Below, in pieces: positions 9,235 to 29,514 of a stretch of DNA of 40,902 nt. Source of the stretch: Chloroflexota bacterium (GTDB lineage Bacteria > Chloroflexota > Dehalococcoidia > Tepidiformales > Tepidiformaceae); NCBI GenBank assembly GCA_026702615.1, contig JAPPBY010000018.1, forward strand, positions 1-40,902, in the 5' to 3' direction. Below the pieces are notes generated by a model. That model did not search any database and was not told the DNA's origin. It was given only the letters and a program-made list of their open reading frames with translations. A program made the translations under genes and the position numbers. Within the stretch, counting starts at the first letter, position 1, and each line of letters opens with the position of its first letter.

Positions 9235-9284
9235 AATTGGGCGCTTGCCTAAGCCCTTTAGGGGTATTCCTCCCGAGGTAGAAC

Positions 9285-10856
9285 ATGCCCGAGTCCTACA
9301 TGGTTCAACTCACCCTTCGGTCTGCCGACGATGGAGGACCGGTGGGTCGACAGCTCCTTCAGGCCGTGGCGGAAGAGGTTCTTCACTGGGCCACTGGGGC
9401 GGAGGGGCTGCCAGAAGGGTCTGAGTTCCCGCACCGCGGGGCGTGGACGAGCGCACGGTTGGGCACGTACGACGTTGTTGGCAGGGCTGACGAGGACTTG
9501 GAGTGGTGGGAGATTGAGTGGGTGAGGCCCGACGCCGAGAGGGACGCACTGTGGGTGAGTCAGATTCAACTGGCGACCAAGGGTAAAGACGTTGAAGGTC
9601 GGATTCGAGTCACGGGGCGTGCCCAGCCGGGGAAGATTACGCCGAAAATCATCTCAGTACGGCGACCGAACGTCGTCCCTCGGCTCGTTACGAGGTTTCA
9701 CGCCACGTACTACGGCGACCGCGTCGATGCGATGCCCGTCTCCCCTATCTCCGCACAACGGGTGGGGCGCTTGGTAGAGCGTCTTGAGGATCCTGAGCGA
9801 CGCCTCCCCCTAGTGCTCATCAGCGTGCCCCGCGAGGCCTCCAAGCCTCTCGTAGTACCAGAATACGCGGCTGACCAGTTGGCAGGCCTCGCCGAAGTTG
9901 CCCTACTTCAGGACGAGTCAGCGTCCTGGCAACTCACGGAGAGGGTGGGGAAGCCCCTCTCTTGTTTCTGGGGAGCCGTCCGGTTGTATTGGCCAGGTTT
10001 CATGCTAAAGACCGATGACCCCTACTCCCACCGCTTATGGCTCTCAAGGCGCATTGAGATGCAGGGGCCGCACGGAGTGGTCGACCAAATCTTCAACATG
10101 CTGTGCTCTAGAGTCGCGCGCGCAACAGGTGACATGACCCTCTGGAAGGAGGTGCGGGATGGCATCGTCGCGCGCACTGAAGCCGAGACACGCAGGCGAC
10201 TCCAGGAACTTGGGGCAGACAGTGAACTCCTTGCTCTAGCTGAGGAGGAAATCGAGGCGGCAATACTAGCTAGAGAACGCTCAGACAAACTCGAGGAAGA
10301 ACTCAAGGAAGCGCAGCAGCGGATCGGCAAGCTCGAAGAGGAGCTAGAAGCCCAACGCGAGCAGTGGACGCAGTTCCAAGCGTACTCCACGAGCCGTGTT
10401 GGAGAGGCTGAAGAGTCTCCCACGGTTGAGAGCATCTTGGGCGCCGTCGAGACGGCCCGCCAACTCCCAAATATTCGGGTTCTCGACAGCGCAGTTGACT
10501 CGGCCCGCAGATCACAGTCGAACAGAGGGCCCGACCTCTACAAGGTCTTCTGCGAGTTGGATCGCCTAGCCGTCGCATACCGCGGAGGGCTGGGGACAGG
10601 GGTCAAGGAGTGGCTCCGCGAGCAGCTCCCTAGTGTGCCGCACGAATACGCTTCCGATCTCAGCGACACGACGACTGGCAAGAGGGAACAGACCTACACA
10701 TTCGGCGGCATCTTCATGCCGAAGCATCTCAAGTTCGGAGGCGGCTTCAACACGCAGAACCTGCTACGCGTCCACTTTGAATTTGAGTTCGACGACGATC
10801 CTCCGCGTTGCGTCATTGGTCACGTCGGCGAGCACCTGCCGAACGAGATGTCGTGA
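9285..10856 (+). CDS. Unrecognised coiled-coil protein of an accessory island
   Basis: The protein has 523 residues in three parts. An N-terminal globular region (1 to about 130) holds WWEIEWVRPDAERDALWVSQ. A middle domain (about 130-260) has YYGDRVDAMPVSPISAQRVG, RRLPLVLIS and LSCFWGAVRLYWPGF. Next comes a charged coiled coil (about 297-367), then a C-terminal domain (about 430-523) with FGGGFNTQNLLRVHFEFEF and CVIGHVGEHLPN. No transmembrane segment, P-loop or nuclease motif is evident. ATG 9285 follows GAGG. Codon use includes more AT-ending and rare codons (CTA, AGA, ATA) than the neighbours, suggesting transfer. I cannot name a family; the architecture suggests a large assembly or defence-associated protein, with low certainty. 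Confidence 0.7.
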   Translation: MPESYMVQLTLRSADDGGPVGRQLLQAVAEEVLHWATGAEGLPEGSEFPHRGAWTSARLGTYDVVGRADEDLEWWEIEWVRPDAERDALWVSQIQLATKGKDVEGRIRVTGRAQPGKITPKIISVRRPNVVPRLVTRFHATYYGDRVDAMPVSPISAQRVGRLVERLEDPERRLPLVLISVPREASKPLVVPEYAADQLAGLAEVALLQDESASWQLTERVGKPLSCFWGAVRLYWPGFMLKTDDPYSHRLWLSRRIEMQGPHGVVDQIFNMLCSRVARATGDMTLWKEVRDGIVARTEAETRRRLQELGADSELLALAEEEIEAAILARERSDKLEEELKEAQQRIGKLEEELEAQREQWTQFQAYSTSRVGEAEESPTVESILGAVETARQLPNIRVLDSAVDSARRSQSNRGPDLYKVFCELDRLAVAYRGGLGTGVKEWLREQLPSVPHEYASDLSDTTTGKREQTYTFGGIFMPKHLKFGGGFNTQNLLRVHFEFEFDDDPPRCVIGHVGEHLPNEMS

Positions 10857-10882
10857 GCATTGGGGCGTACCCGGGGTAGGGG

Positions 10883-10888
10883 TACACT
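10883..10888 (+). promoter_or_regulatory. -10 box TACACT, leaderless spacing
   Basis: TACACT ends 7 nt before ATG 10896, so transcription would start at or next to the start codon and leave no room for a Shine-Dalgarno site. Confidence 0.55.
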
Positions 10889-10895
10889 TCCGCCC

Positions 10896-11405
10896 ATGAC
10901 TGATACGCCCACCCCGCACATCCGACTGGCGACCGACGAGGAGCTGCCGGAGGGGTTGCGTGGGCGTGGCGACGACTTCACGCGGGTGTTCGGGCACAAC
11001 TCGGCGCTGTTCGAGCGTTGGAACGAGTGGTACCGCCCGCTGATCCGGGACGGCGCCGTCTCGGCGCGTCTGAAGGAGATGGTGCGGCTGCGGGTCGCGC
11101 AGCTGAACGCGTGCGACTTCTGACAGGCCGCCCGGCTTCCCCTGTCAGGGGAAGGTGACACCCTCGAGGAGAGCACCGTCGGCAAGATTGCGACGTGGGG
11201 CGACCAGGACTTTACTGAGGCCGAGAAGGCCGCGTTCCACTACGCCGAGCGGCTGTTCGTGGACCACGCCAACATCGACGGCGAGCTGTTCGACGAGTTG
11301 GCCGAGCACTACACCGAGGAGCAGATCCTTGAGATCGGGTGGGCGGTCGTGAGCTACATGGGCTACGGGCGCCTGATTCACTCGTTCGGCCTGAAACCCT
11401 CCTGA
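10896..11405 (+). CDS. AhpD/carboxymuconolactone decarboxylase-like protein with in-frame TGA (candidate selenocysteine, CxxU)
   Basis: Read straight through an internal TGA at 11121-11123, the frame encodes 169 residues of a typical AhpD/CMD-fold protein. Before the TGA comes LKEMVRLRVAQLNACDF, after it QAARLPL; the C-terminal half has DQDFTEAEKAAFHYAERLFV, YTEEQILEIGWAVVSY and GYGRLIHSFGL. Family members carry a redox CxxC exactly here (normally NxCxxC). The TGA is codon 76, so the motif reads C73-D-F-U76. A strong hairpin follows at the spacing of bacterial SECIS elements. AhpD-like selenoproteins with CxxU are known. Likely role: peroxide or disulfide redox chemistry. A nonsense mutation is the alternative. 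The downstream hydrolase has its Shine-Dalgarno inside this gene's final stop. Confidence 0.82.
11121..11154 (+). promoter_or_regulatory. Candidate bacterial SECIS element after the in-frame TGA
   Basis: An 8-bp perfect stem, CTTCCCCT (11136-11143) with AGGGGAAG (11147-11154), closes the three-base loop GTC (11144-11146). Counting the T of TGA as 1, the loop G and U fall at 24 and 25. In the Escherichia coli fdhF SECIS the essential loop G and U are at 23 and 24. The bulged U of fdhF is not evident. SelB binding is inferred. Confidence 0.7.
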
Positions 11406-11417
11406 GGAGAACCGCAA

Positions 11418-12374
11418 ATGACCTTCGATTCCAGCGTCTTCGGCGAGGACGCCATCAGCCAGGAGACGCGCGAGTTCGTGGCCGCCTCGATGGCGATGCG
11501 CGAGCAGATGCCATCGATGGAGAACACGGATCTCGTGGAGCTGCGCCGCTTGATGGACGAGGGCGGCGGGGCGTTCCCCGTGCCCCCGCCCGTCGACCGG
11601 GCGGAGGACCGCACCGTGCCGGGCATGGGCGAGGGCGCCTCGATCCGCATCATCCGGCCGGAGGGGCGCGCGCCCACAGGCGTTTACCTCGACATCCACG
11701 GGGGCGGCTGGGTGATCGGGCGGGCGCGCATGAGCGACCAAGCCAACCTGGCGCTGGTCGAGGCGTTCGGCCTCGCGACGGTGAGCGTCGACTACCGGCT
11801 CGCGCCGGAGCACCCGTATCCCGCGGGTCCGGACGACTGCGAGGCGGCGGCGGTGTGGCTCGTCGAGAACGCGGCGGCGGAGTTCGGGACGGAGCGGCTC
11901 CTGATCGGGGGCGGTTCGGCGGGCGCGCACCTGGCGGCGGTCACGCTGCTGCGGATGCGGGACCGGCACGGCTACACGGGATTCATCGGGGCGAACCTGG
12001 TCTACGGTCCGTACGACCTCTCGATGACGCCGAGCCAGCGGCTGGGCGTGGGACCGGAGGGCGGCCTCGACCGGGCCGCGATCGATCGGTTCTACGAGAT
12101 GTTCATCCCCGGGGTGGATACGACCGACCCGGACGTGTCGCCGCTGAACGCGCACCTGCAGAACATGCCGCCGGCGCTCTTCACGGTGGGGTCGTACGAC
12201 CCGCTGCTGGACGACTCGCTGTTCATGCACGCGCGCTGGCTGGCGGCGGGCAACGAGTCCGAGCTGGCGGTCTACCCCGGCGGCCCGCACGGCTTCGACG
12301 CGGCGCCGATCCCGATCGGGCAGGAGGCGCGGGAGCGCGTCTTCGCGTTCATCGGGGAGCGGCTCGGCCAGTAG
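11418..12374 (+). CDS. Alpha/beta hydrolase of the hormone-sensitive lipase family (carboxylesterase)
   Basis: The protein has 318 residues. The oxyanion-hole motif HGGGW is at 94-98, the nucleophile serine S167 lies in GGGSAGAH, and the acid/base pair is D261 (GSYDPLLDD) and H291 (GGPHGF), the complete HSL-family triad. It hydrolyses short acyl or aryl esters; the natural substrate is unknown. No signal peptide is seen, so it is cytoplasmic. GAGGAG overlaps the TGA terminating the preceding AhpD-like gene (TGAGGAG), 12 nt before ATG, so efficient translation may depend on ribosomes finishing the upstream gene, and hence on reading through its internal TGA. Confidence 0.92.
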   Translation: MTFDSSVFGEDAISQETREFVAASMAMREQMPSMENTDLVELRRLMDEGGGAFPVPPPVDRAEDRTVPGMGEGASIRIIRPEGRAPTGVYLDIHGGGWVIGRARMSDQANLALVEAFGLATVSVDYRLAPEHPYPAGPDDCEAAAVWLVENAAAEFGTERLLIGGGSAGAHLAAVTLLRMRDRHGYTGFIGANLVYGPYDLSMTPSQRLGVGPEGGLDRAAIDRFYEMFIPGVDTTDPDVSPLNAHLQNMPPALFTVGSYDPLLDDSLFMHARWLAAGNESELAVYPGGPHGFDAAPIPIGQEARERVFAFIGERLGQ

Positions 12375-16586: not shown

Positions 16587-16696
16587 CTCTCATCGTTCTC
16601 CCCTTCGGGGATTCCGGCTTTGGCACCTTGTCTCCTGGGAGACAGGTTGCCCGGGCTTCACGGGGCCGGTTCCCTCCACCCGTCTGGATAAGGGCG
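16587..16696 (-). promoter_or_regulatory. SAM-I (S-box) riboswitch
   Basis: On the minus strand the conserved S-box core is visible: CTTATCCAGA (P1/P2), then GGTGGAGGGA, CCGGCCCCGTGAAGCCCGG with GCAACC (kink-turn and SAM pocket), a P3 hairpin, GGTGCCAAAGCC, a P4 hairpin (CCCCGAAGGGG) and GATGAG pairing back to CTTATC to close P1. It stands about 180 nt upstream of the thrC-like gene and points to methionine/SAM-dependent repression of that operon. No clear terminator follows, so control may act on translation or on the leader peptide. The 16410-16809 stretch has no other gene beyond this leader. Confidence 0.92.
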
Positions 16697-29406: not shown

Positions 29407-29436
29407 AAAAGGCCCGTCCGTCTGAACGGACCGGCC
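29407..29436 (-). terminator. Riboswitch-controlled intrinsic terminator upstream of purH
   Basis: On the minus strand GGCCGGTCCGT-TCAG-ACGGACGGGCC forms a hairpin (one mismatch) followed by TTTTG. Its 5' arm uses the GGGCC end of the ZTP aptamer, so ligand-bound aptamer and terminator are mutually exclusive. Confidence 0.8.
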
Positions 29437-29510
29437 CAGGCGAGCGGCCATGCTTGTGATTGCTCGGGCTCCCCCGCGGTACTCCGCGTATTCGCCAGTC
29501 ACCCGAGTGG
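29433..29510 (-). promoter_or_regulatory. ZTP riboswitch (pfl motif)
   Basis: On the minus strand the conserved pfl pieces are present in order: CGGGTGACTGGCG, the spacer GAATACGCGGAGTACCGC, GGGGGAGCCCGAGCAAT, and CCGCTCGCCTGGGCC, whose CGCCUGGGC is the pseudoknot/ligand end. ZMP/ZTP accumulates when folate-dependent formylation is short, and binding turns on purH. Confidence 0.9.
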
Positions 29511-29514
29511 AGTG

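Follow-up and report, generated by a model that had tools for sequence, protein, structure and literature searches.

A CMD-superfamily selenoprotein gene and its closely spaced esterase gene in a Dehalococcoidia genus: a plausible, partial dependence of the esterase on selenium

In the genome of a Chloroflexota bacterium, a gene for an AhpD-like selenoprotein is followed by the gene for an alpha/beta hydrolase at a junction in which the Shine-Dalgarno (SD) sequence of the second gene overlaps the stop codon of the first, and the two genes probably form a two-gene operon that is read from one message. The recoding of the in-frame UGA of the first gene as selenocysteine (Sec) is well supported by comparative sequence data, and a shortage of selenium might also lower the amount of the esterase. 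We regard this dependence as plausible in part, whereas its strict form, in which nearly all of the esterase would come from ribosomes that have read through the UGA, is not favoured. The pair lies in a window of 40,902 nucleotides (contig JAPPBY010000018.1 of assembly GCA_026702615.1, positions 1 to 40,902 of the forward strand), the genome of which is designated G000 and belongs to a genus of nine genomes (G000-G008).

The selenoprotein and its UGA codon

The AhpD-like gene occupies positions 10896 to 11405 on the plus strand, with an ATG at 10896 and a final TGA at 11403-11405, and encodes a protein of 169 amino acids. This protein scored 32.8 bits against the Pfam CMD model PF02627 (cut-off 23), which places it in the CMD superfamily, and 26.2 bits against the AhpD core domain TIGR00778, which is below the cut-off of 27.8 and keeps it outside AhpD proper. 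The active site of AhpD proper has a CxxCxxxH-type motif with the usual His; the corresponding stretch of the present protein reads CDFUQAAR, in which CxxU is present and an Arg stands at the expected His position. Identity to the other listed CMD copies of G000 was 23-31%, indicating a divergent subgroup, and the named relatives of the protein came from Dehalococcoidia/Chloroflexi MAGs. CMD selenoproteins with CxxU are known from marine metagenomes (PMC2398784, PMC13188914), and, as far as they are described in the relevant parts of these sources, the family and the CxxU motif are common to both; the protein in the present study differs from them in its divergent subgroup and in being paired with an esterase.

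Matches to the AhpD-like protein were found in 88 of 196 related genomes, with an ortholog at an identity of at least 68% in 16, namely, the nine members of the genus and seven genomes outside it. All 16 orthologs contain exactly one in-frame TGA, which is located at CxxU, a position of catalytic type, and corresponds to codon 76 of the gene in the window (11121-11123, plus strand). The machinery for Sec insertion is encoded in G000, with SelA (515.9 bits), SelB (298.7 bits), SelD (347.4 bits), and tRNA-Sec (71.1 bits) all scoring above curated cut-offs, and the SelD gene itself carries an in-frame TGA. SelA, tRNA-Sec, and SelD were also above their cut-offs in each of the 15 ortholog genomes covered by the 40-genome sets in which these three and the hydrolase were searched; G026 lies outside these sets.

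A SECIS-like hairpin is located at 11133-11157 on the plus strand (core stem 11136-11154, apical loop GUC 11144-11146), 12-36 nt downstream of the U of the UGA, and its sequence, CUUCCCCU-GUC-AGGGGAAG, hardly varies among 15 of the 16 orthologs. Bacterial SECIS-type hairpins have a G in the apical loop, as does the GUC loop found here. Synonymous differences among the orthologs were also reduced in this region (0.194 in codons 82-89 vs 0.429 outside codons 77-92). RNAalifold detected no base pair of the hairpin in which both partners had changed, and the single-sequence folding energy of the hairpin was not better than that of shuffled sequences (z 0.57). In G018 (L022), bases as well as amino acids after the UGA have changed, and an alternative strong stem that retains the GUC loop can form in another register, 3 nt further downstream; the SECIS-like stem seems to have been rebuilt there. 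The assignment of Sec to codon 76, which had been proposed from the letters of the DNA, is upheld by the retention of the UGA in 16/16 orthologs, the conserved SECIS-like hairpin, and the presence of genes for SelA, SelB, SelD, and tRNA-Sec.

The transcript and the junction with the esterase gene

The hydrolase gene extends from 11418 to 12374 on the plus strand and encodes 318 amino acids. Its product scored 170.8 bits against PF07859 (Abhydrolase_3), with 8q03 and 5jd5 as the closest solved sequences. Esterases of this hormone-sensitive-lipase (HSL) type carry the motifs HGGG and GxSxG, and the hydrolase has HGGGW and GGSAG, which identify it as a member of this family. The esterase gene directly follows the AhpD-like gene in all nine genomes of the genus and is the next gene in none of the seven orthologous loci outside it; in the six of these latter genomes that were covered by the hydrolase search, the best hydrolase match was on another contig. 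Relatives of the hydrolase at 52-58% identity are unlinked to any AhpD-like gene in G014, G017, G012, and G021, and no SelA match was found in G021. Since unlinked relatives exist, one of them in this genome, the esterase as such needs no Sec.

A -10-like box of the type TANNNT, TACACT, lies at 10883-10888 on the plus strand, 7 nt 5' of the AhpD-like start, and is a probable promoter of a leaderless mRNA. A box of this type ends 6-8 nt 5' of the start in all 16 orthologs, while the surrounding upstream sequence largely differs. The portion of PMC3160421 that concerns boxes such as this interprets them as leaderless-gene promoters, and states that operon genes further downstream usually need an SD sequence. 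In a sample of 435,902 bases of G000, in which a simple codon-usage gene finder called 390 genes, a TANNNT box lay 4-9 nt before the start in 28 of the 191 first genes, in 15 of the 90 genes behind intermediate gaps, and in none of the 100 genes with tight starts; the corresponding counts at a control site placed 30 nt upstream were 16, 5, and 2. This genome-wide excess is modest, and the argument for a leaderless start, which remains one from sequence, draws mainly on the conservation among orthologs.

None of the nine genomes of the genus has a TANNNT box within the 150 nt that end with the AhpD-like stop codon; a single match lies inside the AhpD-like/esterase spacer, in G008 only. The sequence-only reading had named an independent promoter before 11418 as an observation that would speak against it, and for TANNNT-type boxes within these 150 nt the outcome is in its favour; a promoter of another type, or one located deeper in the AhpD-like gene, may still be present. 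An independent sigma-70 promoter for the esterase was also considered and rejected. A consensus scan found neither such a promoter nor a terminator, and this result carries little weight because the scan also misses the conserved TACACT; the TANNNT scan is the better test. Collectively, these data suggest one leaderless mRNA that starts at the AhpD-like gene and runs into the esterase gene.

Upstream of the promoter box, an ORF of 523 amino acids (9235-10860) is located between a gene for a TPP enzyme and the AhpD-like gene, and had no Pfam or NCBIfam match. The end of the TPP enzyme gene appears to directly abut the AhpD-like promoter in G001, G004, G007, and G008, and the 523-aa ORF in the window is surrounded by near-identical flanks, GGCGTACC(T/C)GGGGTAG, which suggests that this segment is an insertion. 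Elsewhere in the window, a SAM riboswitch (75.3 bits, 16587-16694) and a ZTP riboswitch (58.1 bits, 29427-29512), both on the minus strand, scored above their gathering scores.

At the junction itself, the SD sequence GAGGAG (11404-11409, plus strand) shares its first GA with the AhpD-like stop codon, as had been noted from the sequence alone, and is located 8 nt from the ATG at 11418; the gap between the two genes, on the same strand, is 12 nt. An SD sequence precedes the esterase gene in 9/9 genomes of the genus and overlaps the AhpD-like stop in eight, with TGA in seven of these and TAG in G008; among the eight, the esterase starts with ATG, GTG, or TTG and the gap is 10-12 nt. Judged by its retention while the start codon, gap, and, once, the stop codon vary, the arrangement is more than a chance string. 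In G005, the end of the AhpD-like gene is longer and a 4-nt GTGA overlap replaces the SD/stop overlap, such that the gap in all nine genomes is between -4 and 12 nt and the same-strand, close spacing expected of coupled genes is found throughout. That the tightness of the junction outlasted this change of layout is a mild sign that it matters.

The same layout is not rare in this genome. In the sample described above, 239 of 382 neighbouring pairs were co-directional. The gap was between -4 and 20 nt in 96 of these 239, including 41 with an overlap of 4 nt, and of the 27 pairs spaced 5-20 nt apart, 6 had an SD run covering the stop codon, the AhpD-like/esterase pair among them; these counts are approximate because the gene finder splits the AhpD-like gene at its UGA. 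The overlap of SD sequences with stop codons between co-directional genes has also been reported as a general phenomenon (Palleja et al., 2009, PMC2784483), and the parts of that study concerning it share with the present junction TGAGG-type patterns, where the stop codon of the first gene also contributes to the SD of the second. Its overlaps are mostly at gaps of 5-8 nt, whereas the gap here is 12 nt and a Sec UGA lies upstream. The Sec gene and the esterase gene meet at an operon junction of an ordinary type.

A fusion of the two proteins through readthrough of the final TGA was considered and rejected. In G000, the esterase is in frame with the AhpD-like gene, the first bases of the stop and start codons being 15 nt apart, but the frame is not conserved, with a gap of 10 or 11 nt in seven of the eight other members of the genus and of -4 in the eighth.

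Initiation at the esterase start and the supply of selenium

The accessibility of the esterase start was estimated as the energy needed to unfold the region from -18 to +6 in contexts of 80, 120, and 200 nt, and compared with that of 95 other tight starts, bearing in mind that RNA folding is a weak proxy for initiation. In G000, the opening energy was 6.9 vs a median of 12.6 kcal/mol in the 80-nt context, 3.5 vs 13.1 kcal/mol in the 120-nt context, and 6.3 vs 13.5 kcal/mol in the 200-nt context. This start is unusually open in the folding model, and initiation independent of the AhpD-like gene appears likely in this genome. The openness is not conserved, as the 120-nt context gave values between 4.5 and 16.5 kcal/mol for the orthologs; in the genus, they were also low in the two shorter contexts in G003 and G004, and mostly ordinary in the other six (8.3-17.5 kcal/mol over all contexts).

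The model of coupling by unfolding, in which RNA structure hides the downstream start, does not fit these data. The predicted fold CTCC-TGA-GGAG (11399-11409, plus strand) may form a 4-bp hairpin across the stop and SD, but its exact CTCC is present in only three of nine members of the genus, and this small hairpin is not conserved. Since the CTCC/GGAG helix is exact in 3/9 only and the start is open in G000, there would be no conserved lock for a passing ribosome to open. Such a lock is dispensable in a model of re-initiation. A hidden RNA element at the 3' end of the AhpD-like gene was likewise rejected because synonymous differences there (0.496 in codons 162-169) are not reduced relative to those elsewhere (0.429).

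According to a review (Brown and Wade, 2025, PMC12548453), coupling is strongest at gaps of -4 to +3 nt and loses efficiency by about 3- to 10-fold as the gap approaches +40 nt; studies disagree on this, and exceptions occur in both directions. The spacing and SD sequence of the present junction fit pairs with measured coupling in the sections of that article on this subject; these sections deal with coupling without an upstream Sec codon, whereas here a Sec UGA lies upstream and coupling is predicted from sequence. The proposal that the esterase start is coupled to ribosomes finishing the AhpD-like gene is borne out in that the two genes form a close, conserved unit with a gap in the range of coupling, and is not supported as a claim of strict dependence, given the esterase's own SD and, in G000, its predicted open start.

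In the strict version of this proposal, the supply of selenium would control the esterase. The junction is tight in 9/9 genomes despite its changed details (SD/stop overlap in eight, GTGA in one), Sec insertion is supported, and the partner of a second Sec gene of the genus, described below, lies closer still, all of which agree with it. We nevertheless consider it unlikely in view of the SD and, in G000, the unusually open start of the esterase, the lack of a conserved sequestering helix, with synonymous sites at the AhpD-like 3' end varying freely, and the unlinked esterase relatives in other genera, including that in a genome without a SelA hit. The associated statement that selenium sets the ratio of the two products has to be inverted: under strict coupling, full-length AhpD and the esterase move together, and selenium shifts their ratio only as far as the esterase is partly independent. 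It is true only for truncated AhpD relative to the esterase, or if coupling is incomplete.

At the other extreme, the two genes would share a transcript alone, the SD/stop overlap would reflect genome compaction, and selenium would be without effect on the esterase. The frequency of such overlaps at comparable gaps in G000, their general occurrence, and the open start in this genome are in line with independent translation. Rho, however, is encoded in G000 (598.5 bits), and a premature stop in a promoter-proximal gene of an operon often brings about at least a degree of polarity, and this reading appears rather improbable to us. Rho might also act by itself, terminating the uncovered mRNA after codon 76 before the esterase gene is reached, in which case polarity would be transcriptional and not a matter of translational coupling; the presence of Rho and the approximately 280 nt between the UGA and stop that would be uncovered are consistent with this, but as the sole explanation we give it hardly any credence.

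The reading that we favour, with moderate confidence, combines these elements. A probably leaderless mRNA would begin at the AhpD-like gene and continue into the esterase gene, the esterase being translated from its own SD in part through direct binding of 30S subunits and in part by ribosomes that terminate at the AhpD-like stop and re-initiate 12 nt on. When selenium is short, ribosomes would stop at codon 76, the re-initiating share would be lost, and about 280 nt of naked RNA would be left, with possible Rho polarity. This predicts a partial fall in the esterase and not a switch.

A second selenoprotein gene pair and comparison with known systems

A second CMD selenoprotein gene with the motif CDFU is located in G000 at C38:4392-4778 on the minus strand (L110, G000:C38:1500-7500), and is followed by a gene for an AMP-binding enzyme (500 aa, 254.6 bits), the GTG of which lies 1 nt after the stop. 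The ligase gene was at exactly +1 nt in seven of the eight genus loci examined (including L117-L120, L122, and L124), with another neighbour in G002; the G005 row represents another paralog, of the kind on C3 of G000, and was excluded from this count. In the seven ligase loci, the stop codon of the CMD gene is TGA (three), TAG (three), or TAA (one), an SD sequence by our own criterion is absent before the ligase in five, and the opening energy of the ligase start was 8.7-18.4 kcal/mol. With its near-optimal spacing, scarcity of SD sequences, and fixed gap, this junction is the one at which Sec-dependent coupling, if it occurs, is most to be expected, and would be a better test than the esterase junction. 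A broader proposition, that a Sec UGA serves through termination and re-initiation as a selenium gate on neighbouring metabolic enzymes in this genus, such that the supply of selenium would control the esterase and AMP-ligase in addition to the CMD selenoproteins themselves, strikes us as very doubtful.

The possibility that Sec genes are specially placed before tight partners was examined and rejected. Two of the six Sec genes of G000 met in these searches (five CMD genes, the AhpD-like one included, and SelD) have such partners vs 96 of 382 adjacent pairs, which, with so few genes, revealed neither enrichment nor avoidance. Two adjacent CMD genes, one with and one without an in-frame TGA, are located at G000:C2:43298-44270, and similar tandem pairs are present in G001-G008.

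In the open-access literature, we recognised no paper measuring Sec-dependent coupling or its effect on downstream genes, and the passages on selenoprotein operons in PMC13188914 concern co-located selenoproteins, not polarity. If downstream genes follow Sec readthrough, selenium shortage would hit enzymes that contain no selenium, and the genus in the present study holds two natural junctions of different strength that are directly comparable.

The closest parallels are the fdnG-fdnH and fdoG-fdoH pairs of Escherichia coli K-12, which belong to formate dehydrogenases N and O, and in which a gene with a Sec UGA (at position 196 in the E. coli Sec formate dehydrogenase genes, according to the part of PMC3636253 concerned) is followed in one operon by a tight downstream gene, as it is here. 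By this analogy, a Sec gene with a tight downstream gene is an arrangement already known in kind because the gap behind both fdnG and fdoG is exactly 12 nt, the same as that between the AhpD-like and esterase genes. In the E. coli pairs, a G-rich SD lies at the TAA stop or 1 nt beyond it, whereas in the window the stop is a TGA embedded in the SD, and the E. coli partners are subunits of one enzyme, whereas the partner here is a separate esterase. A fall of the downstream product when selenium is short, if it occurs, would represent a hidden cost of Sec in operons that fdn and fdo of E. coli would have in common with this genus.
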